A DNA stretch of 48,493 bases from Clostridia bacterium (GTDB taxonomy: Bacteria > Bacillota > Clostridia > Christensenellales > Aristaeellaceae), in the NCBI GenBank assembly GCA_017508975.1, contig JAFWQU010000001.1, forward strand, positions 1-48,493, in the 5' to 3' direction. The translations under genes were made by a program, and so were the position numbers. Below, in pieces: positions 6,456 to 48,098 of this stretch; positions within the stretch are counted from its first letter, which is position 1, and the number at the start of each line of letters is the position of its first letter. The notes beneath the pieces are model-generated. The model ran no database searches and was not told where the DNA came from. It was given only the letters and a program-made list of their open reading frames with translations.

Positions 6456-6557
6456 ATTTCGCGGCCTGCGGGCCGCGACCAGGGCTTTCCGATCGCCCTG
6501 GACCTTCGGCCACATGCTGTTGTTGGATTTGCATTTCTTTCTTGAACTTGGTATAAG
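6456..6557 (-). repeat. Structured intergenic repeat, copy A
   Basis: One of nine copies. Read on the minus strand: a tail (6557-6510), then CCGAAGG, hairpin 1 (CCAGGGC, loop GATCGGAAAG-like, GCCCTGG) and hairpin 2 (CGCGGCC, CGCA, GGCCGCG), ending GAAAT at 6456. The tail end carries TTGCAT, 17 bases and TATAAG on the plus strand, a promoter-like sequence pointing out of the element against the 3' end of the next gene. Confidence 0.85.
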
Positions 6558-6559
6558 AA

Positions 6560-7285
6560 TTACGCTTCTTCCGCAGGTTCCTCGGGAGCCTTTCCGAATG
6601 TACAACCGAGCTCCTCGGCGTAGGCCACGGGGTCGATATAGCCGAACTGGGCTTTGCGCAGGGAGTCGTAGGGGTAGGTGACGTCCATTGTGGTGCCGTC
6701 GGGATGCTCCCCGTGCACCTGGACCTCGCGCACCGGGAGCAGCGCGAGCACATCCCGCGCGCAGCGCAGGGCGAGGCCGCTCAGCAGGCGCTGCGGCTCG
6801 ACGGTGTTCTCCAGCGCGGCGAAGCGCACCTGCGCCTGGTCCGGGGTCGGCGCGCTCACGGTGACGTGCCCCGCGTAGGGCGCCAGGTCCGCCAGCGGAT
6901 TGCGCTCCTGCAGCACCTCCGCGTAGGCCGCGAGATCACCGCTGAGCACGCGCTCGGCGCGCTCGTGTAGGAAAGTCCACTGCGCGGCAGTGGTGATGCC
7001 GTCGTTGGGCGTAGTGCGCAGCAGTACCTCGGTCCAGTCGATGCGCTCGTCCGCGCGCCGCCAGAACTCCTCGAAGGGCGGCGGCGCCGGCGCCTTCTGC
7101 GGCGCGGGGCGGGCGGGCGCGGGGGTGGGAACGGACGCCGCTCCGACCGGCTGCGGCACCGGGGAGGTGGTGCGCAGCGTCTCGTTCATCTTCTGCGCGG
7201 TGCGCACATCCTTGGCCCAGAGGTCGTTGACGATCTGATAGAGCATATCCAGGGGATTCTGATTCTTGTTGTCCTGCACGGCCAT
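6560..7285 (-). CDS. Unknown protein, partner of the AAA+ ATPase
   Basis: 241 residues, not recognised. The N-terminal 45 residues are helical (MLYQIVNDLWAKDVRTAQKMNE), then an Ala/Pro-rich linker (about 46-72), then a folded region starting PFEEFWRRADERIDW and ending in an acidic tail (EEPAEEA). No signal peptide, membrane segment or catalytic motif is visible. It starts 12 bases after the stop of the ATPase gene with a clear GAGGAGG site, so the two are co-transcribed and probably work together; it may be an adaptor or substrate-recruiting subunit (inference). Its stop is four bases from repeat copy A. Confidence 0.6.
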   Translation of the reverse strand: MAVQDNKNQNPLDMLYQIVNDLWAKDVRTAQKMNETLRTTSPVPQPVGAASVPTPAPARPAPQKAPAPPPFEEFWRRADERIDWTEVLLRTTPNDGITTAAQWTFLHERAERVLSGDLAAYAEVLQERNPLADLAPYAGHVTVSAPTPDQAQVRFAALENTVEPQRLLSGLALRCARDVLALLPVREVQVHGEHPDGTTMDVTYPYDSLRKAQFGYIDPVAYAEELGCTFGKAPEEPAEEA

Positions 7286-7297
7286 GGCTGCACCTCC

Positions 7298-9172
7298 TCA
7301 GTCCTCCGTCCGGCACTGCAGCGCGGGCGGGTTGGCATCCACGTCAAAGGATTCGATGACCACTTTCGCGTCCGAGAGGATCTCGTGGTCAAACAGCCAG
7401 CGGGAGAGCGGGTTGATCAGCAGGCTCTCCACCTTGTTTCCGATGCCGCGGCCGCCGTTGGACAGGTCCGCCAGGGCGGCGTCGTGCAGCTGCTGATAGG
7501 CCTCCGGGGTGACGGTCAGGGTCAGATCCTTCTGCTCCCGCAGCCGGGTGGTGATCTTCTTGACCTGGGACTGCAGAATCGCCTCGCCGGCCTCGGCGCG
7601 GATATAGTCGAAGACCACAATGTTTTCGCCGATGCGGTTCAGGATTTCCGGACGGCCGAGCTCCAGCTTGAAATAGTCCTCGATGGCGCCGCGGACCTTC
7701 TGCTGCACCTCCTCGTAGGGCATGTCCATGGTCACGTTGGCGTGCCGCTGTCCCATGGCGTCCTCCACGTAGATGCCCAGGTTGGAGGTGAAGATGATGA
7801 TCGTCTCGCCGAAATAGACGGTGTTGCCCTGGCCGTCGGTCATGCGGCCGTCCTCCAGAATCTGCAGGAACTTGTCGAGAATGTTGGTGTGCGCCTTCTC
7901 GATCTCGTCGAAGAGCAGAATGCAGAAGGGGTTTTTCTTGATGGCGTTGGTCAGCTGGCCGCCGGCCTCGTAGCCCACATAGCCGGGAGGCGCGCCCATG
8001 AGCTTCTGGTCGGAGTGGCTCTGGCCGTACTCGCTCATGTCGAAGCGCACGCAGGCGCTCTCGTCGCCGAAAAGCTTCTCGGCCAGCGCCTTGGCGGTCT
8101 CGGTCTTGCCCACGCCGGTGGGGCCGGCGTAGAAGAGCACGCCCTTGGGCTTGGAGGTGGAGGAGGAGGACAGGCCGTTCATGCCGGTCACGGCGCGCTT
8201 GACCACGTCCAGCGTGCGCTCCAGCGCGGCGTCCTGGCCCTTGATGCGCTTCTGGAAGTCCTCCTTCGCGGTGCGCAGGCTCGCCATGGACAGCCGTTCC
8301 CACGGGTTGTCCTTGAAGCCGTATTTATACAGATCCACCACCTGGCACAGGTCGCGGATGGCGGTCAGCTCCTGCTTGCCCAGTGTGCGCAGGGCGTCCA
8401 GCTCCGTCATGGTAAGCCCTTCGGTGAGGCCGACGAACTTCTCCTGGAGCTTCGCGAGCTCCTCGGGGTGCTCGCGGTACCAGGGCATGTCCGTGCGGTA
8501 GACCGCGCCGTCGAAGAAGGTGGCGAACTGGCTGGTGATCAGCCGCATGCGCTCCTCGCGGTCAGGCGCCTCCAGCGTGATGGCGCGGCAGCAGGGGACG
8601 TTCAGATAGAACCACGCCGGCAGGTCGTTGCGCTTGTCGACGACCACGACCAGCAGATTGCGCCGCCGCCCGGTGGGCGTGCGCACGGTGGACGCGGACA
8701 TGGCGGCCTGCAGGAGCAGGTTGAAGCTGTTCACGTCCGCCTGGTCCATGCGGTCGGGGGAGGTGATGTAGTGGCTGGCCATCTCCAGCACGGTCACCGT
8801 GGCGACGTCCTGCTGCGCCATGGCGCGGCGGATCACGTTGGGCGCCGTGGTGGCCGCGGTGCCGCGGAATTCAGCCGGGATCGCGCCGTTCTTGACCTCC
8901 GCCCGCGCGGCCTTGGCGTAGGCGGTGAGCATCTCCGGCGAGTAGGGGTTGATGAGCCCCAGCAGGTTGGAGTAGAACACGACCGAGCCCCAGCCGTGGT
9001 CCGCAAAGTAGGCCATCAGATAGCGCGGCAGCGAGACCAGCTCATCCTGCCCCACGGATCCGGCCACGGGATAGCGGAACTTGTCCGTGACGTTGCCCTC
9101 CAGAATCAGAAGCGGCTTGACCGTGCTGAACAGCTCCAGTTCCCGGTACCACTTGGAAATCAAAGCGTCCAT
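7298..9172 (-). CDS. AAA+ ATPase with a ClpA/ClpB-type second ring domain
   Basis: 624 residues. The C-terminal half (about 305-610) is a ClpB-D2-like AAA+ module: Walker A GPTGVGKT (350-357), FDMSEY, pore-loop GAPPGYVGY, Walker B ILLFDEIEKAH (Asp422, Glu423), sensor-1 FTSN (Asn464), arginine finger region EILNR (Arg513) and sensor-2-like GGRGIGNK. The N-terminal half looks like a worn-out AAA core: it has a Walker-B-like strand (LLVVVVDKRNDLP) and an ITLEAPDREERMRLI segment but no Walker A. There is no Clp N-domain, no middle coiled coil and no ClpP-binding IGF loop that I can see. It is therefore not ClpA, ClpC or ClpB itself but a related unfoldase or remodeller. Confidence 0.75.
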   Translation of the reverse strand: MDALISKWYRELELFSTVKPLLILEGNVTDKFRYPVAGSVGQDELVSLPRYLMAYFADHGWGSVVFYSNLLGLINPYSPEMLTAYAKAARAEVKNGAIPAEFRGTAATTAPNVIRRAMAQQDVATVTVLEMASHYITSPDRMDQADVNSFNLLLQAAMSASTVRTPTGRRRNLLVVVVDKRNDLPAWFYLNVPCCRAITLEAPDREERMRLITSQFATFFDGAVYRTDMPWYREHPEELAKLQEKFVGLTEGLTMTELDALRTLGKQELTAIRDLCQVVDLYKYGFKDNPWERLSMASLRTAKEDFQKRIKGQDAALERTLDVVKRAVTGMNGLSSSSTSKPKGVLFYAGPTGVGKTETAKALAEKLFGDESACVRFDMSEYGQSHSDQKLMGAPPGYVGYEAGGQLTNAIKKNPFCILLFDEIEKAHTNILDKFLQILEDGRMTDGQGNTVYFGETIIIFTSNLGIYVEDAMGQRHANVTMDMPYEEVQQKVRGAIEDYFKLELGRPEILNRIGENIVVFDYIRAEAGEAILQSQVKKITTRLREQKDLTLTVTPEAYQQLHDAALADLSNGGRGIGNKVESLLINPLSRWLFDHEILSDAKVVIESFDVDANPPALQCRTED

Positions 9173-9219
9173 GGAAAGAAATCACCTCCGGATCACTGCA
9201 GAAAACGATTACGCCCTTT

Positions 9220-9248
9220 ACTTTATCACACTTGGGGATGGATATCAA
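9220..9248 (-). promoter_or_regulatory. Promoter of the AAA+ ATPase unit
   Basis: On the minus strand TTGATA (9248-9243), a 17-base spacer and TAAAGT (9225-9220). The ribosome site GGAGGTG lies just before ATG 9172. Confidence 0.5.
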
Positions 9249-9288
9249 CTGAGAGGACGCTTGAAAAAAGATGAGACTTTGATGAGCG

Positions 9289-10171: not shown

Positions 10172-10270
10172 GATACCAATCTCAAGTCAAAACACACATC
10201 AGGCAACGGCATGTAACCGAAGGTCCAGGGCGATCGGAAAGCCCTGGTCGCGGCCCGCAGGCCGCGAAAT
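10172..10270 (+). repeat. Structured intergenic repeat, copy B
   Basis: Full-length copy with tail (GATACCAATCTCAAG) and both hairpins; stem 2 is the 7-bp CGCGGCC/GGCCGCG version. It forms a head-to-tail pair with copy C, with a 100-base period. The gene-free stretch 10150-10483 holds copies B and C, about 70 bases with nothing recognisable, and a terminator. Confidence 0.85.
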
Positions 10271-10271
10271 C

Positions 10272-10370
10272 TTATACCAATCTCAAGTAAAAACTGCAAA
10301 TCCAGCAACAGCATGTGCCCGAAGGTCCAGGGCGATCGGAAAGCCCTGGCCGCGCCCGCAGGCGCGGAAT
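10272..10370 (+). repeat. Structured intergenic repeat, copy C
   Basis: Full-length copy. Stem 2 is CCGCGCC/GGCGCGG, so the outer pair is C-G where most copies have T-A. On the minus strand its tail reads TTGCAG, 17 bases, TGG-TATAAG, a promoter-like sequence pointing toward the glycosidase gene. Confidence 0.87.
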
Positions 10371-10442
10371 CCCCTTCTGAAAACCGGAATAATGATGAAG
10401 CGTTTTCAAGAATACGATGGTTTCTTGAGGGTGGTTTCAGTG

Positions 10443-20969: not shown

Positions 20970-21790
20970 AACGGACGATTGCTTTGACCCTGGCGCTGCT
21001 GCTGGCGGGATGCCTGTGGACGGGCGCGCTGGCGGACCTGAGGACGGAGACGGAGGAGGCCGCGCGGGCGATCCTGCGCTCGAACGGCGGCGCGCTGCTC
21101 AACGCGCTGAAGAGCGTTCCGGCGGCCGTGGAGACGGCGTATGAGGCGGAGGCGCCGGCGGGGAACGGATCATCGGCGGGATCGCTGCTGACGGCGGACG
21201 GGAGCGCGATCCTGGCGGCGCTGAAGGGACAGCCCGCGCAGGAGCCTGAGAGCGCGGCGGAGGCCGAGGAGGTGCCGGCGGGGAACGGATCCCTTGATTC
21301 GCTGCTGACGGCGGACGGGAACGCGATCCTGGCGGCGCTGAGCGGAGAGCCCGCGCCGAGGGCGGAGATTGCGGCGGAGGCCGGGGAGGCGCCGGCGGGG
21401 AACGGATCCCTTGATTCGCTGCTGACAGCGGACGGGAGCGCGATTCTGGCCGCGCTGAGCGGAGAGCCCGCGCCGCGGACAGAGACGGCCGTGGAAGCGC
21501 CTGTCTATGGCAGCTCGCCGGCTGCGGACACCCCCGTGTCGGAGGCGGCCCGGGCCATTCTCGGCGCCAACCCGATCCGGATTCTCTCGGCTCTGCAGAA
21601 TGCGGATGCTGCGGACACGCAGAGATGGGCGGAGACCGTCCCGGCGGTTGAGACCGGAACGCCCGACGAGGAGCCCGAGCTGATCGAGGAGCCCGAACCG
21701 GCAATCCCCGAGGATGCGGAGGAGCGCCCGGTGGGGGAGACCTTCTATAATATTCTCGACAAGGTCCACGAGATCTTCAAAACGCCGTGA
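20966..21790 (+). CDS. Exported repeat protein with possible lipoprotein signal
   Basis: 274 residues, not recognised. The signal sequence MKRTIALTLALLLAGC fits a lipobox (LAGC, Cys16), but a type I cleavage after ALA at 21-23 is also possible. The body is built from three near-identical 39-40-residue units with the core SLLTADGSAILAALSGEPA and a GNGSLDS linker, plus two related degenerate units near each end (EEAARAILRSNGGALLNAL and EAARAILGANPIRILSAL). Each unit looks like one short amphipathic helix in an acidic, Ala/Glu/Pro-rich linker. The C-terminus (FYNILDKVHEIFKT) is another amphipathic helix. It shares style with the secreted protein encoded next. A terminator follows. Confidence 0.65.
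   Translation: MKRTIALTLALLLAGCLWTGALADLRTETEEAARAILRSNGGALLNALKSVPAAVETAYEAEAPAGNGSSAGSLLTADGSAILAALKGQPAQEPESAAEAEEVPAGNGSLDSLLTADGNAILAALSGEPAPRAEIAAEAGEAPAGNGSLDSLLTADGSAILAALSGEPAPRTETAVEAPVYGSSPAADTPVSEAARAILGANPIRILSALQNADAADTQRWAETVPAVETGTPDEEPELIEEPEPAIPEDAEERPVGETFYNILDKVHEIFKTP
21161..21514 (+). repeat. Tandem coding repeat, units of 120 and 117 bases
   Basis: GGGAACGGAT begins units at 21161, 21281 and 21398. Units 2 and 3 are nearly identical over GGATCCCTTGATTCGCTGCT and beyond. The repeat is in frame, so unit number could change without breaking the protein. Confidence 0.85.
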
Positions 21791-21929: not shown

Positions 21930-23363
21930 ATGAAGAGACGGATCTTGGCGCTGCTGCTGGTCCTGTCGCTGCTGCTGACCGGCGGAGCGCTGGCGGAGCT
22001 GGATTTTTCGGCGATCACGGAGAATCCGAACATCCAGCCGCCGGAAGTCGATGGTGACGGGGACGCCTTTGTCTACTCCACCGTGGACATCAGCGCGGCG
22101 CTGCTGAACTTTGACGGTGTTCCGGAGAACAGCCAGAGCCTGATCTACAGCGATATGCTGATCCTCGGCTATGCGGAGGGTCAGAGCGCGATTCCGGTGT
22201 GGCGGATCAAGCTGACGCTGCAGACGGCGGAGGGCCTGGAGCCCACCGCGGTCACCTTCTCGCGGGACGCGAAGGACTTCACCTTCTCGCTGGAGGACGT
22301 GCGCATCAACACGGGGACGAAGGACAACGGCCTGGTGGAGGAGAGCTTCTATCTCTTCATGGGGAAGGACAACGAGGTCTTCTGGCGGCCGATCCTGGAG
22401 CAGGCGGCGGCCGGGGATCTGACAGCCGCGCAGCTGACGGTCCACGGCAGCCGCGACCTGACGGCGGAGGTCTCCGCTGAGGCGGTCCGGGACATCGCAC
22501 TGGTCGGCGAGGCGTTCCTGCGGCTCATCGGCGGGGACTGGTCGCAGGCGCTCGATTTGGCCGGCACTCCTGTCACGGCCGTTGAGAATGCCCCGGCGAG
22601 GGAGCCTGAACCGGAACCCGAACCGGAACCGGATCCCGAACCCGCGCGGAACGACGGGACGGAGGTCCCGCTGGGGGACGCGGCCGGACAGATCCTGCAG
22701 CACCTGCAGCAGATCCTGAGCCCGGAGAACACGGAACCCGCCCGGAAATCCGATCCGGAACCGCAGCCGGAGCCTGAACCTGAGCCGGAACCGGAACCCG
22801 AACCGGAGCCCGAACCCGAGCCGGAACCGGAACCCGAACCGGAGCCCGAACCGGAGCCCGAACCCGAACCGGAACCCTCCTACCAGCCCATTGAGCTGAC
22901 GCCGGTGGAGAATTCGGAGAGCGCGAAGGCGTATCTGCGCATCACCGACCGCAGCGGCGCCACCCAGTACTGGGGTGAGGAGGCGCCGGAGGGGATGACC
23001 CTGACCGCGGCGACGGTGGACGGCTACGGACGCTATACGGTGGCGATCACCTTCGCGAATCCGGTGGCAGACCTGGGCTACGCCTGCGTGGTGGTGGAGG
23101 GCGGCGAGACGCTCTGGCCCGGCGCGCTGATCCATGTTGAGCGCGTGGCGGTGGACGGCCGCGAGATCGAGTGCCGGAAGGGATACACCTATACCGAGGA
23201 CAACGGGATCCTGTGGAACCTCTACAACGAGCGGGTGAACATCCTGCCCAAGACCGCCCGCGCGGAGGACGGCGAGCTGCAGGGCGCGAGCGCGACGCCC
23301 GTCGATCGGGATGACTTCAACGGCTTCACGGCCCTGGAGGTCACCTTCCTGCTGATGCCCTGA
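21930..23363 (+). CDS. Secreted two-domain protein with Pro-Glu repeat spacer
   Basis: 477 residues, not recognised by family. A signal peptide (1-22, TGGALA-EL) leads to a beta-rich domain (about 40-210; [31 protein letters not shown]). Then come a short Glu-Pro run (225-238), a helix with [15 protein letters not shown] (close in style to the repeat units of the previous protein), a long (Glu-Pro)n spacer (276-316), and a C-terminal beta domain (317-477) with [14 protein letters not shown] and [12 protein letters not shown]. Glu-Pro spacers are stiff and typical of proteins that reach out from the cell surface. No anchor motif is visible. Confidence 0.7.
22755..22878 (+). repeat. Glu-Pro coding microsatellite
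   Basis: About 20 Glu-Pro dipeptide codons made of GAACCG, GAGCCC and GAACCC hexamers in mixed order. A shorter run lies at 22602-22645. Slippage could change the spacer length in frame. Confidence 0.85.
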
Positions 23364-23899: not shown

Positions 23900-23996
23900 A
23901 GATGATCTCAAGCAGAAACTGCAAATCCAGTAAACAGCATGTATCCGAAGGTCCAGGGCGATCGGAAAGCCCTGGTCGCGCCCGCAGGCGCGAAAT
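23900..23996 (+). repeat. Structured intergenic repeat, copy D
   Basis: Both hairpins are intact, but the tail end reads CAGATGATCTCAAG, so the promoter-like TATAAG is lost. It is followed by GTTGACA and AGCATACGA, which recur after copy E: the D-E pair is a 126-base direct duplication that includes flanking sequence. Confidence 0.85.
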
Positions 23997-24024
23997 CCCA
24001 CCGTTGACAAGAAGCATACGAAAC

Positions 24025-24122
24025 TTATACCAATCTCAAGTAAAACTGCAAATCAAGAAAAGGCATGTAACCGAAGGTCCAGGGCGATCGGAAAGCCCTG
24101 GTCGCGCCCGCAGGCGCGAAAT
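24025..24122 (+). repeat. Structured intergenic repeat, copy E
   Basis: Full-length copy with tail TTATACCAATCTCAAG. Both hairpins intact. On the minus strand the tail reads TTGCAG, 16 bases, TATAAG. About 70 bases separate it from uvrC. Confidence 0.87.
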
Positions 24123-24195
24123 CTCCCTGTTGACATTTAGCATACGATACTGCGATCAGTATGAGATCAATTCAGAATAAAAAGGGGGCGAGACC

Positions 24196-32021: not shown

Positions 32022-34436
32022 ATGCTCACCAGAGGAAAGGCGCAGCGCCCGGAGGCGCTGCTGAGCCCCGTGGCAAGCCGGAATCCGGCATGCTGGTATT
32101 TCCTGCGCGTGGACGGCTGGTCTCCCCAGCTGGAGGAGGTCCTGTGGCAGTGTCATGAGGCGGCCCGGAAACGGGGCGTGGTGCTGGGGGAGATTCCCAA
32201 CCCCGACATGACGCAGCTGACCTACTACCGGGAGCAGCTGGGCAGCGACTTTGAGCTCTCGGGCTCTTTCATCACCACGGCCCTGCAGAAATGGCTGCCG
32301 GGGCTGCGGCCGGACACCCGGCGGCGGCTCGCGGACGCGATGACGCAGCTATTGCACCAGGAGAAACAGCGCGGGAAATCCGACAGCGCGCTGCGGGGAC
32401 TGTTCACGAAGCTGATGTGCTGGCTGTATTACCGGTTCCGGGGCATCACGGATCAGCTGGGCGGCGACCGGCTGCCGCTGATCTTCTGCCTGTGCGCGGA
32501 GCTGTCCAGCCACGCGCTGGCCCTCCTGCAGATGCTCGGAGGGCTCGGTGCGGACATCCTGCTGGTGGAGCCGCAGGGCGACGAATGGTATCAGCTGATC
32601 GACCCGAACTCGGCCTTCTCCGAGAAGTGCGAGGTGCCGGGACTGCAGCCGTTCCCGAAGGATTTCACGCTCAAGAGCTTCCAGAAAAAACACGCCTCGG
32701 CGCCGCCGCCTCCGAAGCCGCCGGCCCCGAAGCCGGCGGTGAACCCCGGTCCGCGGCCCGTTCCGCCGCAGGTTCCGCCCGTGCGCCCCGCCGCGCCGCC
32801 GCCTGTCGTGCGGCCCGCGATGCCGCCGGTGGATCCGCTGCAGCGCTTCACGCCGCCCTCGGCGAACGTGCAGCCAAACGTGTGGATGAAGAACGCGGAG
32901 CTGGAGTCGATCCTGACCCCGGTGGCCCACCGCGGCGGCACGGAAGCCTACCACACAGTGCTGATGCGGCTGCGGGGCGTGCGCGACAAGCTGACCTACC
33001 CCAACGAGCTGTATCAGTTCTACCGGAAGCTCTCCGCCACCGGGCGGCGCGTGGCGGTGGTCGACGGCGCGTTCCCGGAGCCGAGCCCCGAGGAGCTGCG
33101 GCAGATCCGCCGCCGCGGACGCTATCTCTCGGTCGGGGAGATGGCGGTAGACCTGGCGGGCAACCTGCCCACCGGCGCCTCGCAGGAACTGACCCGCCTG
33201 GCGCAGCGTGCCTTTGCGGAGGTGCTGCTGGAGGCGGAGAAGGCCGGCGAGCCGCTGACCCGGCTGATGACGAACGCGGTGATCCTGCTGTGCTGGGTCC
33301 GCCGCTATCACGCCTCGCTCTACAGCGGCTGGAAACCCACGGAGATGCCCTGCCTGATCCGCATGGGACACTGCGAGCACGCCCGGGAGGAGCTCTTCCT
33401 GAGCTGGCTGAGCCGGATGCCGGTGGACCTGCTGCTGCTGGCGCCGAACCTGAACCAGATCGACTCGTTCCAGCACCCGGCGCTGCTGGAACTGACCGGC
33501 GAGGAGAGCCTGCCGGAGTTTGCCTTCCCGCGCGACGCGTCCTCGCTGCAGATGCGCACCCTGGCCTCGCACGCGCAGGAGGAGCTGACGGGGATGCTCT
33601 TCGAGGACAGCGGCCTGTACCGCGACCGGCAGTTCAGCCGCGCCAACGCGGTGGTGCTGCAGAGCACGCAGGATGAGGTCGACATCTACTGGGACCAGGA
33701 GCTGCGCTTCCGGCCGAACTTCGCGGCGGAGGGCGGCGAGGTGACCCTGCCGGTGCTCTGGGCGCGCATGAGCGGCGTCCCGGACGGGGAGCCGCTGCGC
33801 TACTGGCAGCACATCAAGAGCCTGACCATGGCGCCGGACACGCTGCTCTTCCAGCAGATGCCGATGATTCCCGCCAGCCAGGCGCGGCAGCACACAGCCC
33901 TCGCCACCAAATACCTGCGGGACGGCCGCATCCGCGCGGACGGGCTGATCAGCGACAAACAGTATCCCTACGGCCCGCTGCGCCGCGAGGTGCAGGCTCA
34001 CATGCTCCTGAAGGTGCAGGAGATGCTGGACCAGCGGCTGATCCTGGGAACCTTCGAGAACGGGACGGAGTACACCGTGCTCTCCACCGCGCTGAGTCTG
34101 CCCGCGGCGGTGTCGCGGATGATCCAGAGCTTCGACTTCACCAAGAAAAACCCGAAGATCGTCTGTATCCACACCGCCGAGCGCGAGGGGACGCTGGAGG
34201 ACGCGATCTTCCTGACCTTCCTGAGCCTGGTGGGCTTCGACGTGGTGCTGTTCGTGCCCACGGGCTACCAGACGATCGAGCGCTTCCTGCGCGAGCGGCT
34301 GCCGGTGGATCACCAGCTGGGCGCTTACCGCTTCGATCTCCATGTACCGGACTTCTCCACCCTGCCGAATCCCAAGAACGGCTTCCTGGCCGAGGGACTC
34401 AGCTGGGTCGGCAATCTGTTTAAGAGGGGGAATTGA
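32022..34436 (+). CDS. yceG: YceG-family protein of the Ter stress system
   Basis: 804 residues, clearly longer than the ~540-residue Bacillus YceG. It has an N-terminal part (1-215), a Pro-rich linker (226-280) and a large second part (281-804). The order next to telA and after terD genes matches yceG-yceH of Bacillus, and the C-terminal FDVVLFVPTGYQTIE and HQLGAYRFDLHVPDF look like that family. The N-terminal part contains LPLIFCLCAELSSH and LGADILLVEPQGDEWY, which resembles the C-terminal KIVCIHTAEREGT and VGFDVVLFVPTGY in pattern, so it may be an extra duplicated Rossmann-like unit. The family is proposed, from genome context, to work with Ter proteins; no activity is established. Confidence 0.75.
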   Translation: MLTRGKAQRPEALLSPVASRNPACWYFLRVDGWSPQLEEVLWQCHEAARKRGVVLGEIPNPDMTQLTYYREQLGSDFELSGSFITTALQKWLPGLRPDTRRRLADAMTQLLHQEKQRGKSDSALRGLFTKLMCWLYYRFRGITDQLGGDRLPLIFCLCAELSSHALALLQMLGGLGADILLVEPQGDEWYQLIDPNSAFSEKCEVPGLQPFPKDFTLKSFQKKHASAPPPPKPPAPKPAVNPGPRPVPPQVPPVRPAAPPPVVRPAMPPVDPLQRFTPPSANVQPNVWMKNAELESILTPVAHRGGTEAYHTVLMRLRGVRDKLTYPNELYQFYRKLSATGRRVAVVDGAFPEPSPEELRQIRRRGRYLSVGEMAVDLAGNLPTGASQELTRLAQRAFAEVLLEAEKAGEPLTRLMTNAVILLCWVRRYHASLYSGWKPTEMPCLIRMGHCEHAREELFLSWLSRMPVDLLLLAPNLNQIDSFQHPALLELTGEESLPEFAFPRDASSLQMRTLASHAQEELTGMLFEDSGLYRDRQFSRANAVVLQSTQDEVDIYWDQELRFRPNFAAEGGEVTLPVLWARMSGVPDGEPLRYWQHIKSLTMAPDTLLFQQMPMIPASQARQHTALATKYLRDGRIRADGLISDKQYPYGPLRREVQAHMLLKVQEMLDQRLILGTFENGTEYTVLSTALSLPAAVSRMIQSFDFTKKNPKIVCIHTAEREGTLEDAIFLTFLSLVGFDVVLFVPTGYQTIERFLRERLPVDHQLGAYRFDLHVPDFSTLPNPKNGFLAEGLSWVGNLFKRGN

Positions 34437-34439
34437 CCG

Positions 34440-35585
34440 ATGGCTATCCAATTCAAGAACACAGGCACACCCGCCTATCAGCAGCCCGCGGCACCCAGCC
34501 AGCCGGAGCTGATCGAGCTGGAGCCCTACGACATTCAGGCGGACCGGAACAGCCTGGCGCAGGAACTGCAGGGCTCTCCGGAGATCGAGTCGCTGACCGC
34601 CGGCATCGACGTGAGCGACCTGACGACGATCGTCTCCTTCGGCGCGAACGCGGCCGACGAGATGTCCAAGGCGTCGGATGTGATCCTGCGCTCCCTCTCG
34701 ATGAGTGATCTGGATGAGTCGAGCCAGCTGCTGGCGACGCTGACCAAGATCATGGACAAGTTCGATATCGACGAGGTGAAGCAGAATCCCTCCCTGCTCG
34801 GGAAGCTCTTCGGCAACCTCCGCAAGCAGCTGGAGAAGATCATCGGCAAGTACCAGACCATGGGCGACGAGGTGGACAAGATCTACGTCCAGCTGCGGCA
34901 GTACGAGACCGAGATCAAGCAGAGCAACCAGAAGCTGGACTCGCTCTTCGACGCCAACGTCGGCTACTACCATGAGCTGGTGAAGTACATTGTGGCCGGC
35001 GAGCAGGGCGTGCAGGAGATCAGCGACTATATCGACGAGCGCGCGGCGGCCATGGAGGCCAGCGGCGACCAGTCCATCGCCTTCGAGATCCAGACGCTGC
35101 AGCAGGCGCGCGACATGCTCGACCAGCGCGTGCAGGACCTGCGCACGGCCGAGGTTGTGGCCATGCAGTCCATCCCCATGATCCGCACGATGCAGTTCAG
35201 CAACATGAACCTCGTGCGCAAGATCAACTCCGCCTTCATCATCACCCTACCCGTGTTCAAGCAGGCCCTGGCGCAGGCGATCCTGCTCAAGCGGCAGCAG
35301 ATCCAGGCCCAGGCGATCAGCGCGCTGGACGAGCGCACCAACGAGATGCTGATCAAGAACGCGCGCAACGCCACCGAGACCAGCAAGCTGACCGCACGGC
35401 TCGCCAGCGGCTCCTCCATCAAGGCCGACACCCTGGAGACCACCTGGCGCACGATCGTCAACGGCATCGACGAGACGAAGAAGATCCAGGAGAACGCCTC
35501 CCGGCAGCGCGCCGAGGACCAGGCGAAGCTCGAGCGGATCAAGGCTGAGTATCACCAGCGCTTTGACATGCCGGACCGGCGCTGA
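34440..35585 (+). CDS. telA: TelA/YceH toxic-anion-resistance-family protein
   Basis: 381 residues, the family length. It is almost wholly helical and charged, with long coiled-coil-like stretches (KLDSLFDANVGYYHELVKYI, EIQTLQQARDMLDQRVQDL) and the TelA-typical middle block MQSIPMIRTMQFSNMNLVRKINSAFIITLPVFKQAL. No membrane segment. It starts three bases after yceG, as telA/yceH does in Bacillus. Family members are linked to tellurite, nisin and cell-envelope stress tolerance; the mechanism is unknown. It is the last gene of the operon, and repeat copy F follows nine bases after the stop. Confidence 0.94.
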   Translation: MAIQFKNTGTPAYQQPAAPSQPELIELEPYDIQADRNSLAQELQGSPEIESLTAGIDVSDLTTIVSFGANAADEMSKASDVILRSLSMSDLDESSQLLATLTKIMDKFDIDEVKQNPSLLGKLFGNLRKQLEKIIGKYQTMGDEVDKIYVQLRQYETEIKQSNQKLDSLFDANVGYYHELVKYIVAGEQGVQEISDYIDERAAAMEASGDQSIAFEIQTLQQARDMLDQRVQDLRTAEVVAMQSIPMIRTMQFSNMNLVRKINSAFIITLPVFKQALAQAILLKRQQIQAQAISALDERTNEMLIKNARNATETSKLTARLASGSSIKADTLETTWRTIVNGIDETKKIQENASRQRAEDQAKLERIKAEYHQRFDMPDRR

Positions 35586-35593
35586 GAGATACG

Positions 35594-35677
35594 GGATTCC
35601 GCGCCTGCGGGCGCGGCCAGAGGCTTTCCGGTCGCCTCTGGACTCTTCGGTACATATCCTTGTTTGATGTGCTGTTC
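35594..35677 (-). repeat. Structured intergenic repeat, copy F
   Basis: Read on the minus strand. Stem 1 is the 8-bp CCAGAGGC/GCCTCTGG version, and stem 2 has the C-G outer pair. The loop has one change (GACCGG for GATCGG). The tail is of a second type (GCACATCAAACAAGGATATG) that also resembles copy B. Confidence 0.83.
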
Positions 35678-35694
35678 TGAGCGGAGGAAAGCCT

Positions 35695-36267
35695 ATGAGA
35701 AGGATCATCTGCCTGCTGGTGCTCCTGTGTCTGTTTGTGCCCTGCGGATTTGGCGAGGGGCTCGACACGGATCCAGGCTACCAAACGTGGATCAGCGGCG
35801 TGGACACGGTGCACCGGCCGGTGGACCAGCCCTTCTTCGGCACGGTGTCGGAGGGCACCATCTGCGCTTTCCTGGACCTGGCGGAGCTGGCGGACAGCGA
35901 GCTCCTGGTCCCGCGCCTGGTGCTCGCCACCGAGCTGGAGGAACCCCTCTACGCGGCGGAGCTCACCCTGCAGGTGGGCAAGACCGTGTGGCACGCCGGC
36001 GTGCATGCGGAGATCTCCGAGTATGACATGCTCTACCTGGAGGATTACACGATTCTTCTGGCGGGCGGCGGGCTCGACCTCCTGCAGGCGATGGCCAAGG
36101 CCAAGAGCAGCGAGTTCCCCTTCACCCTTACCGCCGAGGGCCGCGCGCTGCAGGGCTCCCTGACCATCCCCACGGGCAGCGTCCAGCGCCTCTGGAAGGA
36201 CTTCAAGCGCCTCAGGGGCGACAAGCAGGACCTGTCGGGGATTGAGGACGTGTGGAGGAAGGAATAA
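35695..36267 (+). CDS. Secreted protein of unknown function
   Basis: 190 residues. A signal peptide (1-20, CGFG-EG) is followed by a mixed alpha/beta domain with no recognised motif; strand-like stretches are YAAELTLQVGKTVWHAGVHA and EFPFTLTAEGRALQGSLTI. There are no Cys residues after the signal peptide and no wall anchor. The ribosome site GCGGAGGAAAG is good. It stands alone between a repeat and a hairpin, and no function is proposed. Confidence 0.7.
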   Translation: MRRIICLLVLLCLFVPCGFGEGLDTDPGYQTWISGVDTVHRPVDQPFFGTVSEGTICAFLDLAELADSELLVPRLVLATELEEPLYAAELTLQVGKTVWHAGVHAEISEYDMLYLEDYTILLAGGGLDLLQAMAKAKSSEFPFTLTAEGRALQGSLTIPTGSVQRLWKDFKRLRGDKQDLSGIEDVWRKE

Positions 36268-41206: not shown

Positions 41207-41233
41207 ACGCTTGACAAGTGCATGACCGTGAAG

Positions 41234-41346
41234 CTTCTTCGGGGCAGGGTGAAATTCCCTACCGGCGGTACAGCCCGCGAACCTGCGTATGCAGGCCGAA
41301 CCGGTGTGATTCCGGTGCCGACAGTAGAGTCTGGATGAGAGAAGAG
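41234..41346 (+). promoter_or_regulatory. FMN riboswitch (RFN element)
   Basis: All hallmarks are present: CGGGGCAGGGTGAAATTCCC, ACCGGCGGT, GCCCGCGA, a variable hairpin (CCTGCGTATGCAGG), GGTGTGATTCCGGTGCCGAC and AGTAGAGTCTGGATGAGAGAAG. CTTCT at the start pairs with AGAAG at the end to form P1. It senses FMN and controls ribU by the terminator that follows. Confidence 0.97.
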
Positions 41347-41370
41347 CTGGGAATCCCTCCGCGCGATTTC

Positions 41371-41427: not shown

Positions 41428-41976
41428 ATGTCTCAAAAGAAATCAATTCTGTCTACCCCGTATCTGACCCGCATCGCCATTCTGGCGGCCCTGGGCGCGG
41501 CGCTGTCGATGATCGAGTTCCCGATCTTCCCCGGCGCGCCGTTCTACAAGATGGACCCCAGCGGACTGCCGGTGATCCTCGCGGCGTTCTCCATGGGGAC
41601 GCCCGCCGGGATCCTGACCCTGCTGGTCAAGGACCTGATCGGCCTGCTGATCCATCCGAGCGGCGGCTGGGTCGGCCAGCTGGCGGACTTCCTGGTGCTG
41701 CTGGCGTTCATCATTCCGCCGTCCATTCTCTATCAGCAGAAGAAGACCCGCGGCAACGCGCTGATCGGCATGCTGATGGGCATCCTGCTGATGCTGTCGG
41801 TTGCCGTGCTCGCCAACAAGTATATCCTCTTCCCAGCATTCGGCGTGCCGAACGCGGAGAAGTACATCATCCCCTTCACAATCCCCTTCAATGCGATCAA
41901 GGGTGTCGCGCTGACTCTGATCACCTTCCTGATCTACAAGCCTCTCTCCCCGCTGCTGAAGGTCAAGATGCGCTGA
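41428..41976 (+). CDS. ribU: Riboflavin transporter, ECF S-component
   Basis: 182 residues, six membrane segments. Near the N-terminus RIAILAALGAALSMIEFPI, then FYKMDPSGLPVILAAFSMG and LLVKDLIGLLIHPSGGWVG(Q)LADF are typical RibU segments; the AxxxA in helix 1 contacts the EcfT subunit. It captures riboflavin and works with a shared EcfAAT module encoded elsewhere. The FMN riboswitch upstream settles the substrate. A strong AGGAGG site precedes ATG 41428 and a terminator follows. Confidence 0.95.
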   Translation: MSQKKSILSTPYLTRIAILAALGAALSMIEFPIFPGAPFYKMDPSGLPVILAAFSMGTPAGILTLLVKDLIGLLIHPSGGWVGQLADFLVLLAFIIPPSILYQQKKTRGNALIGMLMGILLMLSVAVLANKYILFPAFGVPNAEKYIIPFTIPFNAIKGVALTLITFLIYKPLSPLLKVKMR

Positions 41977-44579: not shown

Positions 44580-46234
44580 AAAACTATGGCATTCTGACCC
44601 GGCTGATGCTCAGCAATATGCTGAGCTCGCTGAATCCGTTCGGCATCAGCTATGAGGATAAGAAAAAGCGCGGCCGGGCGCTTCTGCGCACGCTGGGCGT
44701 GCTGATCATTCTTGCGAGCGGCATCGGCTTTGTGGTTTTCCTGGAGTACGAGCTCTCCACGCTGCTCAAGCCCATGGGGCAGCTGTCGCTGCTGCTGGGC
44801 ATGGCGGTCCTGTTCTCGATGGTCCTGACCCTGGTGCTGGGCCTGTTCCAGACGCTCTCGGAGCTCTACCAGGGCAAGGACGCGCCCTTCCTGGCGGCGC
44901 TGCCGCTGACCAGCCGGCAGGTGTTCGCGGCGCGGATGACCTCGCTGTATGTCTCGGAACTGGGAATCGACGCGCTGATCACGATCCCCGCGATGGTGCT
45001 CTACTGCATGGGCACGGGGAAGGTACTGCCGGTGGCGCTGACCGGGCTGCCGGTCCTGCTGCTCCTGCCGGTGATCCCGCTGGTGCTCGTGACGCTGATC
45101 GGCTCGCTGCTCATGCGGGTGAGTTTCTTCAGCCGGAACCGCGAGACGATTGTCATGGTGCTCAGCATGGGCATCGCCATCGCCTACTCGGTCGCGGTGA
45201 CCATGATGAACACCTCCGCGAGCGACAGCCCCGCGACGCAGCTTGTCAGCTACCTGACGCGGGAGAACGGTCTGGCGGAGCTGCTGATCAGCCGCTTCCC
45301 GCCCGCGCTGTGGGCGATGCGCGGCCTGATTGGACAAGGGCTCTGGCTGGCGCTGCTGGCGGGTGTGTCCGTCCTGGCGGCCGCCCTGCTGATCCTGCTG
45401 GTGGGCGCAGACTACCTGCCCCAGGCGCTGAGTGCCGGGGAACACACGGTCGGCCAGTGCCGCGTCAAGGGACAGGCCAGCTGGCGTGCCTCCTCCGCGT
45501 TCGGCGCACTGCACAGCCTGGAGTGGCATGAGCTGCTCCGCACACCCGCCTGGGCTTACAACGCCCTCGCCGGCGTGATCATGTTCCCCCTGATGATGGG
45601 GATCGGCCTGTTTGCCGGCTTCTCCAAGGGCGGAGCCGGGGATCCCACCGCGCTGATCGAAGAGCTTGCGCAGGAGTTTGGCTACGGCTATATCGCGCTG
45701 GTCGCCGCCGCGCTCTTCGCCATGGGCAGCATGGTGAACCCCGCCGTGTCGACCGCGATCTCCCGTGAGGGCGGACGCTGGCCCTTCGCGCTGACCCTGC
45801 CCGTGCGGCAGCGGACGCGCTTCGCGGCGAAACTGATGGTGGGCGTGGAGATCAACCTGATCTGTGGGCTGCTGATCGCGGTCGTGGTTGAGTATCTGGC
45901 GCGGATGCCCCTGCTGTGGCTTCTGGCAGCCCTGGCACTCTCGCAGGCGATCGGCCTGGCCGCCTCCGCGGCGTCGCTGTGGGTGGACGCGCGTCGTCCC
46001 CAGCTGAAGTGGAACAGCGAGATGGAGGCCATCAAGAAGAATTTCAACCAGGTCTTCGGCATGTTCCTGTGGCTGGCGTTCCTGGGCCTGTGCGTGATCC
46101 CCGCGGTGTTCCTGTGGAACAGGGGCGGCGGCATCGCGATGCTCGGCTGTGCCGGGATGGCGCTGCTGGAGGTCGCTGTGAGCCTCTTGCTCCTCTCCCG
46201 CGTCACGGAAAAGCACACGGCTCTGCAGGACTGA
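44576..46234 (+). CDS. ABC-2-type exporter permease
   Basis: 552 residues with about twelve membrane segments in two sets, for example LGVLIILASGIGFVVFLEY, LLLGMAVLFSMVLTLVLGLF, ALTGLPVLLLLPVIPLVLV, LALLAGVSVLAAALLILLV and FLWLAFLGLCVIPAVFLW. The segment ELYQGKDAPFLAALPLTSRQVFAARM is the cytoplasmic coupling helix common to large bacterial ABC-2 permeases (YtrF/putative ABC exporter group). It works with the preceding ATPase. Repeat copy G follows 15 bases after the stop. Confidence 0.88.
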   Translation: MKNYGILTRLMLSNMLSSLNPFGISYEDKKKRGRALLRTLGVLIILASGIGFVVFLEYELSTLLKPMGQLSLLLGMAVLFSMVLTLVLGLFQTLSELYQGKDAPFLAALPLTSRQVFAARMTSLYVSELGIDALITIPAMVLYCMGTGKVLPVALTGLPVLLLLPVIPLVLVTLIGSLLMRVSFFSRNRETIVMVLSMGIAIAYSVAVTMMNTSASDSPATQLVSYLTRENGLAELLISRFPPALWAMRGLIGQGLWLALLAGVSVLAAALLILLVGADYLPQALSAGEHTVGQCRVKGQASWRASSAFGALHSLEWHELLRTPAWAYNALAGVIMFPLMMGIGLFAGFSKGGAGDPTALIEELAQEFGYGYIALVAAALFAMGSMVNPAVSTAISREGGRWPFALTLPVRQRTRFAAKLMVGVEINLICGLLIAVVVEYLARMPLLWLLAALALSQAIGLAASAASLWVDARRPQLKWNSEMEAIKKNFNQVFGMFLWLAFLGLCVIPAVFLWNRGGGIAMLGCAGMALLEVAVSLLLLSRVTEKHTALQD

Positions 46235-46249
46235 CAGGAGCCCTTCAAA

Positions 46250-46334
46250 AGCAAAGGTATCTGCCTGAAGGTCCAGGGCGATCGGAAAGCCGCCGGTCCG
46301 GCTGCGGACCTGGCCGCGCCCGCAGGCGCGAAAC
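46250..46334 (+). repeat. Structured intergenic repeat, copy G with an internal insertion
   Basis: Core intact except for an 18-base insertion (46292-46309) in the descending arm of stem 1. The insertion carries its own inverted repeat, GGTCCG/CGGACC. The tail is short and diverged, and stem 2 has a C-A mismatch at the outer pair. Confidence 0.8.
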
Positions 46335-46382
46335 CCCTGCTTCGGTCAAGGAAAACCCAATAAACCGGCTGGAGAGAAAAGC

Positions 46383-47894
46383 ATGTATCAGATTCTGACT
46401 GCTGACCAGGCTGCGGAGCTGATCCCGGATGGCGCCTGTATCTGCGTCAACTCGTTCGTAGGCATCGAGAATCCGGTGGAACTCCATGAGGCCCTGGGGA
46501 GACGGTACCATGAGACCGGCTCCCCGGGCCATTTGACGATCATCTCCAGCGCGGGCTTCGGCGTATGGGATGAGGACCGCGCCGCCGAGGGCTATATCCG
46601 GGAGGGCGCGGTGGACCGGCTGATCTGCGGCCACTTCGGCGCGATGCCCAGCACCAAGCGGATCATCCTCGAGGACCGTTTCGAGGCGTACAACCTGCCG
46701 CTGGGCTGCATTTCGCACGCGATCCGTGCGCAGGCCGGCGGCCTGCCCGGCGCGCTGTCCAAGGTGGGCCTCGACCTGTTCGTGGATCCCCGCCGCGAGG
46801 GGCCCGGCATCAACCGCATCTCCCACGACCCGAGCCTCGTGAAGCTCGTGGAGCTGGACGGGGAGGAGTTCCTGTACTATAAACTGCCCCGGATCACCTG
46901 CGCCCTGATCAAGGGCACGGCGGCGGATCCCCGGGGCAATATCTCGTTCGACGACATGTATATGTCGGGCGACGCGCTCTCCATCTGCCAGGCGACCAAG
47001 GCCAACGGCGGCAAGGTGATCGTGCAGGTGGACAAGCTGGTGGATGTCCCCTCCCGGCCGCGAAACGCGGTTATTCCCGGCTGCCTGGTGGACGCGATCG
47101 TGGTGGTGGAGCCCGGCTGGCGCGACGAGGCGTACACGGCGCTGATGGGCTCCTTCGAGATCCCCTACGCGCAGTGGCCGGAGTGGACCGACCGCCTGGA
47201 GGCGCTGACCGCCACCCGGCGGCAGGATTCCACCGCCAGCCGGATCATCGGCCGCCGCGCCGCGCAGGAGCTCAAGAAGGGCGATATCGTCAACGTGGGC
47301 ATCGGCATTCCGGAGGCGGTCTCGCACTACGCGCGCAAGAACGGCATGCTGGACCATGTGACGCTGACGGTGGAGTCCGGCAGCGTGGGCGGCTTCCCGG
47401 CTTCGGGCCAGGTGTTCGGCGCCATGATCGGCGCGACCTCCGTCTGCGATATGTCCAACCAGTTCGACCTGTATGACAACGGCGGACTGGACATCTGCTT
47501 CATGGGCGCGCTGGAGGTGGACCGGCACGGGAATGTCAACGCCCACCGCGGCCCCGGCGCCTTCGCCGGCATCGGCGGTTTCGCGAACATCACCGCGCGG
47601 ACGCCCACCGTGGTCTTCTGCCTGACTTTCAACACCAAGGGCCTGACGGTCACTCGCAAGGGCGGCATCGTCACGGTCGAGCAGAACGGCTCCATCCCGA
47701 AGTTCGTCAACGAGATCCAGGCGGTGAGCTTCTCCGCCAAGCAGGCGCTGGCCAACGGTCAGCGGGTGCTGTACGTGACTGAGCGCTGCGTGCTGGGGCT
47801 GACCTCGAACGGCCTGAAGCTCCTGGAGGTCTATCCGGGCGTGGACGTCGTGCGCGACATACTGGCACTGCTGCCTTTCGCGGTGGAGATCTGA
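46383..47894 (+). CDS. Acyl-CoA:acetate/propionate CoA-transferase (class I, Pct-like)
   Basis: 503 residues with alpha and beta halves fused, as in propionate CoA-transferase. N-terminal half: ELIPDGACICVNSFVGIENP, the oxyanion-type loop in IISSAGFGVWDE, GGKVIVQVDKLV. C-terminal half: IVNVGIGIPEAVSHYA and LTVESGSVGG, in which Glu331 is the nucleophile that forms the enzyme-CoA thioester. FMGALEVDRHGNVNAHR completes the family pattern. It moves CoA between short-chain acids, as in propionate or butyrate fermentation; the exact acid is not predictable. Ribosome site GGAGAGAAAAG. Confidence 0.9.
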   Translation: MYQILTADQAAELIPDGACICVNSFVGIENPVELHEALGRRYHETGSPGHLTIISSAGFGVWDEDRAAEGYIREGAVDRLICGHFGAMPSTKRIILEDRFEAYNLPLGCISHAIRAQAGGLPGALSKVGLDLFVDPRREGPGINRISHDPSLVKLVELDGEEFLYYKLPRITCALIKGTAADPRGNISFDDMYMSGDALSICQATKANGGKVIVQVDKLVDVPSRPRNAVIPGCLVDAIVVVEPGWRDEAYTALMGSFEIPYAQWPEWTDRLEALTATRRQDSTASRIIGRRAAQELKKGDIVNVGIGIPEAVSHYARKNGMLDHVTLTVESGSVGGFPASGQVFGAMIGATSVCDMSNQFDLYDNGGLDICFMGALEVDRHGNVNAHRGPGAFAGIGGFANITARTPTVVFCLTFNTKGLTVTRKGGIVTVEQNGSIPKFVNEIQAVSFSAKQALANGQRVLYVTERCVLGLTSNGLKLLEVYPGVDVVRDILALLPFAVEI

Positions 47895-47910
47895 TTCTTT
47901 CACGAAAAAG

Positions 47911-47981
47911 GATTTCGCGCCTGCGGGCGCGACCAGAGGCTTTCCGATCGCCTCTGGACTCTTCGGACACACTCTTTTGGA
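47911..47981 (-). repeat. Structured intergenic repeat, copy H
   Basis: Minus orientation, stem 1 of the 8-bp CCAGAGGC/GCCTCTGG type, stem 2 intact. It is paired tail to tail with copy I; together they fill the 224-base gap between convergent genes. Confidence 0.85.
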
Positions 47982-48029
47982 GAAGTTGGGTATTTCAGCG
48001 CAGGGCCTTCCTGCTATCCCCAAACTTCC

Positions 48030-48098
48030 AAAGAAGTGCATTGCCGAAGGTCCAGGGCGATCGGAAAGCCCTGGTCGCGGCCCGCAGGCCGCGAAATC
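48030..48098 (+). repeat. Structured intergenic repeat, copy I
   Basis: Plus orientation, 7-bp stem 1 and 7-bp stem 2 (CGCGGCC/GGCCGCG). The tail is short. It ends 20 bases from the metK stop. Confidence 0.85.

Follow-up and report, generated by a model that had tools for sequence, protein, structure and literature searches.

The closest described relatives of the repeat analyzed here are an intrastrand-triplex repeat and the REP-like palindromes. According to the work on ITxF, a database of such repeats (Holder et al. 2015, PMC4666352), the best studied triplex repeat of bacteria, BoxC/TM_ECO, has a single consensus and adopts its fold in vitro; its duplex form gave no triplex signal, and in vivo footprinting was unsupportive. 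The core of our repeat resembles BoxC/TM_ECO, as described there, in its putative G/C-rich, purine-motif third strand within one DNA strand of ~37 nt, its intergenic location, a copy number that is patchy among close relatives, and the occurrence of two types in inverted pairs. It differs in that the third strand would lie 5' in the core (class I) rather than as in the class II TM_ECO, in having a pseudoknot stem that ties the loop to the 5' end and stems that vary freely among copies, and in being strand polar in one genus, whereas TM_ECO is unbiased; vehicles of the core also include a MITE. The hairpin loop is 9 nt, against an ITxF search range of 1 to 6 nt, and the TM_ECO/BoxC consensus, CCCTCNCCC-N3-6-GGGNGAGGG-N3-GGGNGAGGG, was not found in the core, which differs from it in both order and sequence.

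REP, REPIN and BIME elements (GTAG and CGTC superfamilies; PMC3733652) are extragenic palindromes of 20 to 60 nt that form inverted dimers, as does the core, and CGTC REPs likewise have no known transposase. Unlike REPs, the core has a CCGA 5' segment in place of a GTRG or CGTC tag, a pseudoknot and triplex constraint, and no linked RAYT that we could find. A folded single strand and a replication-strand bias are features that the core appears to share with IS200/IS605 elements (PMC6006769), from which it differs in its ~40-nt unit; neither a linked Y1 transposase gene (TnpA) nor a pair of left and right ends was seen. We read the core as a variant of the known bacterial intrastrand-triplex and REP-like repeats, in a previously undescribed form.

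Nine copies of the repeat in the window

The window is the whole stretch of DNA analyzed, 48,493 nt. A first-pass annotation had reported nine copies of the repeat, between genes and on both strands, and all nine were present at the places named (Table 1). The ORF list, our own gene calls and the Pfam matches of neighboring genes agreed on the intergenic placement. Pfam matches placed the end of TelA (+, 34440-35582) just before the copy at 35594, which is overlain by a spurious reverse ORF of our home-made gene caller (35247-35708). With up to one mismatch, the loop GATCGGAAAG was matched 14 times in the window compared to an expected 3.9 (0 of 100 shuffles reached this number), and the draft genome of 1.52 Mb to which the window belongs had 338 exact matches and none to the reversed pattern.

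Table 1. Copies of the repeat in the window
Copy	Position	Strand	Composition	CCGA-to-loop	Remarks
1	6456..6553	-	Core (stem CCAGGGC) and hairpin 2, 6456-6509; type A 5' arm reaching 6553	6485-6509	3' arm unrecognized
2	10174..10268	+	Type A 5' arm; core (CCAGGGC) starting at 10217, hairpin 2	10217-10241 (+)	DNA fold z -4.44
3	10275..10372	+	MITE-like 5' arm of type A, TACCAATCTCAAG...; core starting at 10319, hairpin 2	10319-10343 (+)	3' arm unrecognized
4	23904..23997	+	Type A 5' arm with an approximate start, core starting at 23945, hairpin 2	23945-23969 (+)	
5	24028..24161	+	Complete unit of type A (TACCAATCTCAAG ... CGATCAGTA), core starting at 24071	24071-24095 (+)	Upstream of uvrC
6	35594..35650	-	AG-flavor core (CCAGAGGC), loop GACCGGAAA, hairpin 2	35624-35650 (-)	
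7	46264..46335	+	Degenerate core, CTGA replacing CCGA; hairpin 2	46264-46289	17-nt insert 46292-46308 within 3' arm of S2; outer mismatch C/A in hairpin 2
8	47910..47966	-	AG-flavor core (CCAGAGGC), hairpin 2	47940-47966	
9	48044..48097	+	G-flavor core (CCAGGGC), hairpin 2	48044-48068	

The loop described as conserved was exact in eight of the nine copies, that at 35594 carrying GACCGGAAAG instead. CCGAAGG had been assigned to each core, and the copy at 46250 departed from this with CTGA for CCGA; its hairpin 1 also carried the 17-nt insert on the 3' side. Hairpin 2, described for every copy in the window, was family-wide an add-on of some subfamilies only. The quoted stem changes (CCAGGGC against CCAGAGGC, and CGCGCC against CGCGGCC) were real, as was the replacement of an outer T-A pair by C-G at 10319 and 35594. 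Because just two stem-1 alleles occur in it, the window by itself is weak evidence of covariation. Copies 1 and 9 were complementary at 100% over 55 nt, copies 8 and 9 formed a head-to-head pair (8 the left half and 9 the right half), and the 3-mers flanking copy 5 differed (TTA versus TGA). Single-strand DNA folds of four copies had energies of -18.6 to -19.6 kcal/mol, with z scores of -4.41 to -4.89. An FMN riboswitch was also present in the window according to Rfam.

Covariation of the core

What stayed constant throughout one bacterial family was a core of ~37 nt, CCGA-L1-stem-GA-TCGG-AAA-stem, with a constant 5' segment of CCGAAG (or GCGAAG); MAFFT left the 5' part of the copies unaligned. 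The earlier description in terms of two hairpins had overlooked the two defining features, the pairing of the loop with CCGA and the match, by a triplex rule, of the intervening segment (L1) to the purine strand of the stem. Two hairpins are not the essence of the element. Three interactions, termed S1, S2 and L1-S2, covaried.

In the variable hairpin stem, S2, all 277 cells were paired, 69 cells were double changed compared to a shuffled mean of 17.8, and the covariation score was 0.599, versus at most 0.207 in slid registers. Selection on the folded form, proposed from the window, had stronger backing from family-wide covariation of the stems than had been claimed. S1 is a pseudoknot stem between CCGA and the TCGG of the loop. 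Among de-duplicated copies from fetched loci, with the window left out, 570 of 582 combinations were paired (552 CCG/CGG, 17 GCG/CGC and 1 CCA/TGG), 2 had a wobble and 10 were broken; an S1/core tally made before de-duplication had counted overlapping pattern matches. The GCG/CGC copies came from few genomes. Scans of viral contigs for S1 variants yielded five GCG/CGC matches, with a real stem in locus L525 only, and one chance match in each of two broken-pair scans and one CTG/CAG scan.

With L1 placed against the purine strand of S2 in antiparallel orientation, a G-C pair faced G and an A-T pair faced T or A. This rule was obeyed at register +2 in 344 of 391 cells (88%) and broken in 47, compared to 73% and 61% obeyed at the adjacent registers. 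Of the 79 cells that faced an A of S2, 67 had T or A in L1, compared to 15 of the 292 that faced a G. Beyond the constant first positions, 186 of 229 cells obeyed, a value reached by 0 of 2,000 length-matched permutations, and viral variants missing from the host set obeyed in 87 of 101 cells, or 50 of 64 beyond the first positions (equalled by 7 of 2,000 permutations), although these permutation values are not strict probabilities because variants share descent. The pattern is that of the purine-motif DNA triplex rule, with a third strand (G.GC, A.AT and T.AT; class I) antiparallel to the purine strand that was recognizable through covariation only.

We lean slightly, and with considerable doubt, toward a DNA-level foldback mobile repeat whose core folds as a triplex-braced H-type pseudoknot and in which the fold rather than the stem sequence is kept. 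The single-stranded core would form this pseudoknot from S1 and S2, and L1 would run antiparallel in the major groove of S2 with G.G-C, T.A-T and A.A-T triples. Such a fold may well form in cells, where the DNA rather than the RNA would matter. The cellular use of triple-helical DNA is a long-open question, and many copies with differing stems, a third strand that tracks the stem and a compensated S1 amount to evolutionary evidence that the DNA folds. The core could thus offer a rare natural test case of a mobile genomic element made of triple-helical DNA.

Strand polarity and gene context

GC skew marks the replication strand. In one genus, g51, the core often occurred alone and on the C-rich strand. 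All 63 sampled copies of genome G306, in stretches picked for holding copies, were on the negative-skew strand, as were 4 of 4 in G124 when one stemless loose-pattern match (1,350,001 stretch) was left out. Agreement with local 3-kb skew was 28 of 30 in G144, 31 of 32 in G306 and 24 of 25 in 18 other g51 genomes, and G306 copies listed for the same contig shared a strand. Polarity was absent from G000, G009 and G035, the core had no strand bias in the window's genome, and 13 of 60 copies in viral contigs were on the positive-skew strand.

In g51 the bare ~40-nt core would have inserted into narrow gaps between genes and, in nearly every case, on one replication strand as defined by GC skew. 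We infer from such patterns how the repeat moves and what role it has: an enzyme would insert it at the fork via single-stranded DNA, and this coupling would have produced the polarity. Polarity in ~20 related species makes the link between a foldback DNA and the replication fork directly testable. More tentatively, the repeat may represent a new class of single-stranded DNA mobile elements, namely a bare DNA pseudoknot of ~40 nt that is braced by an intramolecular purine-motif triplex, recognized by its shape, inserted at the fork by a non-RAYT enzyme and later carried as cargo by MITEs, inverted pairs and phages.

It is unlikely that the core or its complement instead acts as an H-type pseudoknot of mRNA, located between genes or past stop codons, in stability, processing or translation. 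Pseudoknot topology is possible on either strand, and several g51 copies finished within 5 to 10 nt of where a gene on the opposite strand stops. Neighbor orientations, which are approximate counts because our home-made gene caller errs (in the window at 32349-34973 and 35247-35708), pointed in two directions: 39 of 60 copies in viral contigs were antisense to both neighbors, so that the complement would be in mRNA, whereas around G306 copies orientation was mixed (25 opposite to both neighbors, 13 in the same direction as both and 4 same/opposite, host [g51] copies not being de-duplicated) and strand nevertheless tracked GC skew. Selection on one RNA strand should favor G-U, but G-T and A-C mismatches in S2 were nearly equal (41 and 32 of 3,759 pairs). 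Moreover, the triples fit the DNA purine motif, and the commonest A-T triple of the complement misfits the pyrimidine motif. The suggestion of a family of RNA 3' ends is unsupported, given the same mismatch counts and the tracking of the skew strand, not of genes, by g51 copies.

Vehicles of the core

In the window's genome the core rode a TNA-flanked MITE and inverted pairs. Like MITEs, the type A copies of this genome had TIRs and identical flanking 3-mers (14 of 21, all TNA); TIRs together with a target-site duplication were a property of type A only, and the core in g51, unlike MITEs, was TIR-less. In the ~0.44 Mb examined of the 1.52-Mb genome, all 24 matches to the type A 5' arm carried the core, and no autonomous MITE partner was found. 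Head-to-head neighbors 100 to 399 nt apart numbered 36 in G009, 15 in G035 and 17 in G000 and were mostly of two flavors. Under the foldback-repeat reading, these other vehicles would scatter the core in either orientation, both in the window's genome and in those allied to it.

Less likely than an RNA role is a host-useful chromosomal signal, in which the fold would serve the fork as a polar pause, a priming site or a segregation signal and the g51 polarity would be selected rather than insertional. This would accommodate the polarity and also the much greater constraint on the core than on the MITE arms in G000 (non-consensus bases, 2/620 versus 131/872 and 158/897, in 20 rows that include one with a loop insert and one with a different 3' half). 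However, the 13-mer was missing from 15 of 37 g51 genomes and yet up to 145 strict copies occurred in one, 10-mer and 13-mer counts being upper limits because low counts include, by eye, coding or chance matches. The lack of polarity in the three genomes named above also argues against a host signal, and head-to-head pairs would cancel polarity.

Search for an associated transposase

The REP-like label given by the first-pass annotation is a fair analogy for a small, intergenic, palindromic repeat with some inverted pairs and patchy copy number. The RAYT link that it raised did not emerge: searches for Y1_Tnp in 60 genomes (the window's own included), 12 genomes (four of them repeats) and 34 genomes revealed no association of RAYT/Y1 with the core. 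A classical REP/REPIN mobilized by RAYT (Y1 HUH transposase) is accordingly improbable, even though the palindromes, the two-flavor inverted neighbors and the lagging-strand biology of Y1 enzymes (PMC6006769) would suit it, and even though G489, outside the family, combined three core copies with a RAYT-size gene and G005 combined copies with a weak Y1 match. Y1_Tnp was unmatched in five genomes (G000, G009, G011, G035 and G068), single absences being soft because these are drafts (66 to 94% complete). The core was absent from the 14 Y1 loci checked; loci of the 34-genome search were listed for hairpins only. RAYT-size genes were present in 10 of 15 g51 genomes without the 13-mer versus 12 of 22 with it, a few of these 22 possibly being false, and many such genes were flanked by other hairpins, of the GGGACGG type. 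The tetranucleotide GTRG (R being A or G) was missing 5' of the hairpin foot, where the constant segment lies.

Template-switch correction is a mutational process able to make paired changes without selection. That template switching at quasi-palindromes keeps the stems perfect, with shared ancestry explaining the remainder and no fold selected, is very improbable, as it would not make the mirror/triplex L1-S2 relation, which holds in viral variants too.

Distribution across genomes

The strict pattern was detected in 13 of 297 genomes of the order and 5 of 341 of the class, the window's own being counted in both. The four other class-level matches were stemless by eye and attributed to chance, as were order matches outside the family except those of G489 and G163. 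Insertion sites were empty in relatives. At gathering scores, Rfam matched nothing of the repeat in the window, so identity to an Rfam family, which would have spoken against the first-pass annotation, was not seen there. Five loci searched at E values up to 5 gave nine Rfam matches, every one below gathering; one of these, PhotoRC-I (18.3 bits; gathering, 45), lay over the L095 core on the opposite strand and was taken as chance. A plasmid search with one 261-nt query was without matches. One diverged copy was present in phage record MT837061. Genomes of some gut and rumen bacteria carried hundreds of copies of the repeat.

Copies in the window and plan of the core

All nine copies named in the first-pass annotation were recovered, between genes and on both strands. 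The loop it had described as conserved, GATCGGAAAG, was exact in eight of these but not in the remaining one. In the window's own genome (G000; a draft of 1.52 Mb, 66% complete), GATCGGAAAG was found exactly 338 times and the reversed pattern was not found. When four copies were folded in silico as single-stranded DNA, a pair of hairpins was predicted, with energies near -19 kcal/mol (z scores of -4.41 to -4.89), and the repeat had no Rfam match in the window at gathering scores. Other features of the window are listed in the table.

Coordinates of features in the window and in one phage record
Feature	Sequence	Positions	Remarks
Repeat copy	window	46264	degenerate
FMN riboswitch	window	41231-41350	RF00050, 115.5 bits
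ORF	window	41428-41976	downstream of the riboswitch
Repeats within ORFs	window	21135-21532 and 22572-22889	three 117-nt tandem copies; array of 12/18-nt units reading GAACCGGAACCC
Diverged repeat copy	L469 (MT837061.1), human-gut phage record	542-601	85.5% identity over query bases 15-70

A common plan was shared by many genomes: CCGA, a putative third strand (L1; AGG...), the S2a arm ending in ...GGGC, the loop GA-TCGG-AAA and the S2b arm beginning GCCC.... A second hairpin (TCGC..GCGA, then AAATC), previously assigned to every core, was present in only some subfamilies; in genus g51, many copies were bare cores with unrelated flanks on both sides (83 copies listed for genome G306). Because hairpin 2 was limited to some subfamilies and the g51 flanks were unrelated, the essential unit is the core of ~37 to 45 nt. 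Some cores of relatives G009 (L072-L077) and G035 (L055-L067) carried long structured S2 inserts ending directly before GATCGGAAAG; a shorter hairpin insert, of about 17 to 19 nt, lay in the opposite arm in G000.

Covariation and the proposed third strand

The earlier proposal of selection on the folded form was upheld and extended by covariation. All 277 S2 cells in 32 distinct hand-picked sequences held standard pairs. Double changes affected six of nine pairs (69 cells, versus 17.8 in shuffles), and the covariation score was 0.599, compared to ≤0.207 for slid partners. For S1, the pseudoknot stem between CCGA and the TCGG of the loop, a scan of all fetched loci, de-duplicated and with pairing not demanded, detected CCG/CGG (552), GCG/CGC (17), CCA/TGG (1), wobble (2) and broken (10) combinations. 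Intermediates were almost missing (GCG/CGG, 1; CCG/CGC, 0). Among six GCG/CGC loci listed, five were from MAG RUG13572 and one from G009, and viral locus L525 was another; as five of the six share one MAG, these copies represent few events.

The arrangement matches an H-type pseudoknot, with L1 spanning the deep groove of S2 and the AAA segment spanning S1. Positions were counted in L1 starting at CCGA and in S2a starting at the loop, which places L1[k] opposite S2a[k+2]. Of the 292 cells with G in S2a, 277 had G in L1; of the 79 with A in S2a, 67 had T (49) or A (18) in L1. This triplex rule was obeyed in 344 of 391 cells, compared to 295 of 405 one register lower and 226 of 373 one register higher. 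After the first positions, 186 of 229 cells fitted, versus a mean of 146.7 and a maximum of 164 in 2,000 permutations among variants of equal length. With the rule fixed, nineteen viral variants outside the host set fitted in 87 of 101 cells, and in 50 of 64 after the first positions, a value attained in 7 of 2,000 permutations. On the complementary strand, bases opposite A-T pairs misfitted the pyrimidine motif where L1 was T. According to Holder et al. (PMC4666352), the purine (R) motif of DNA consists of G.G-C, A.A-T and T.A-T triples in which the third strand runs antiparallel, and it cannot form in RNA.

If selection acted on S2 as RNA from one strand, an excess of G-U would be expected; S2 mismatches were instead 41 G-T and 32 A-C in 3,759 pairs (537 copies). 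The best reading of the element is a mobile foldback repeat of DNA, with a class I triplex and a pseudoknot. The structure is strongly indicated and probably correct, and we hold the DNA-level reading with moderate confidence.

In the literature searched, neither this element nor any natural repeat that combines a DNA pseudoknot with a triplex was described. The closest known case is TM_ECO (Holder et al. 2015, PMC4666352), which, according to that article, is class II and intergenic, lacks strand bias, has types A and B paired as inverted repeats, and gave no stable triplex in vivo. The finder described there permits loops of 1 to 6 nt and therefore would miss a 9-nt loop.

Mobility and vehicles

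The sequence around three G306 copies aligned with G144, and in some cases with G221 or G282 as well, in blocks from which the copy was missing in these relatives; looser alignments yielded two more such empty sites. The clearest comprised about 35 nt between CTCC and TTAT, and a target duplication was not evident there in the G306 comparison.

Roughly half of the own-genome copies read lay in a MITE-like vehicle, type A (46 of 80 matched a loose flank pattern, which admits some false ones), with arms TACCAATCTCAAG... (5') and ...TGAGATYAGTA (3'). Identical TNA 3-mers flanked 14 of 21, and all 24 matches to the 5' arm in about 0.44 Mb of the genome contained the core. Among 20 type A copies, non-consensus bases numbered 2/620 in the core and 131/872 and 158/897 in the arms (singletons: 2, 25 and 31); this comparison is somewhat biased, as a loose core pattern was used together with the 5' arm to retrieve the copies. 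An arm-only search gave 36 of 39 true copies perfect in the loop and CCGAAG (2 of 41 matches were unrelated). Other copies formed head-to-head pairs spaced 100 to 399 nt apart, and pairs with one of each stem flavour made up 35/35 in G009, 20/22 (G/T) in G035 and 12/17 in G000. Many non-type-A copies in G000 (L036-L046) were fused to GC-rich modules such as CAGCAAGCTGGGG, GGTAGGGAGGGG and GGTGCCCGAAGGGCGG, giving mosaic repeats.

Strand polarity

Positive GC skew generally marks the leading strand. Copies in g51 tracked the skew strand rather than genes: the negative-skew strand held 63 of 63 sampled copies in G306 (twenty 20-kb stretches picked for holding copies; genome total, 145) and 4 of 4 in G124, whose 3.26-Mb contig had two skew sign changes, as expected for two replichores. 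By 3-kb skew, the corresponding figures were 28/30 in G144, 31/32 in G306 and 24/25 in 18 other g51 genomes. Gene contexts, counted with overlapping loci not de-duplicated, varied: they were 25 opposite/opposite, 13 same/same, 4 same/opposite, 4 inside and 1 open in G306, and 18 opposite/opposite, 8 same/same, 4 and 4 mixed and 3 inside in G144. No polarity was detected between G-poor and G-rich strands in G000 (46/53), G009 (43/42) or G035 (33/32), and skew was weak in many of these stretches. Of 60 copies in viral contigs, 47 were on the negative-skew strand and 39 were antisense to both neighbours. Insertion may, as a hypothesis, be coupled to the replication fork.

The transposase search covered the Y1_Tnp family. 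A Y1_Tnp match was absent from G000, G009, G011, G035 and G068 and present in 14 of 60 relatives, mostly at IS200 size; the core was absent from all 14 Y1 loci checked. RAYT-size genes occurred in 10 of 15 g51 genomes without the 13-mer GCGATCGGAAAGC and 12 of 22 with it. Many of these genes (e.g., L380, L381, L389, L391 and L394) were flanked by perfect GGGACGG/GGGAC-type hairpins whose stems differ, which appear to be another family of REP-like repeats in which the stem varies.

Distribution

Copy number, by the 12-mer GATCGGAAAGCC, was very uneven among 60 relatives: 512 in G009 and 62 in G011 (one genus), 274 in G035 (a different genus) and ≤10 in nearly all others. GCGATCGGAAAGC was present in 89 of 300 family genomes, a count that includes chance matches and is therefore an upper limit. 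A stricter pattern matched 13 of 297 genomes at the order level and 5 of 341 at the class level, with the own genome counted in each; beyond the family, the sole real-looking carrier by eye was G489 (3 copies). Among the matches listed, named motif-bearing records were mostly Clostridia MAGs, many ruminant-derived, and one title read Bacteroidales.

A viral-contig scan yielded 51 stretches on 48 contigs, at least one (L501) being a chance match. Two contigs were examined: L490 carried terminase and portal genes of tailed phages, and L516 a tailed-phage terminase gene. In L490 (IMGVR_UViG_3300037512_001174), cores occupied three consecutive gaps around the large-terminase and portal genes, all antisense to genes.
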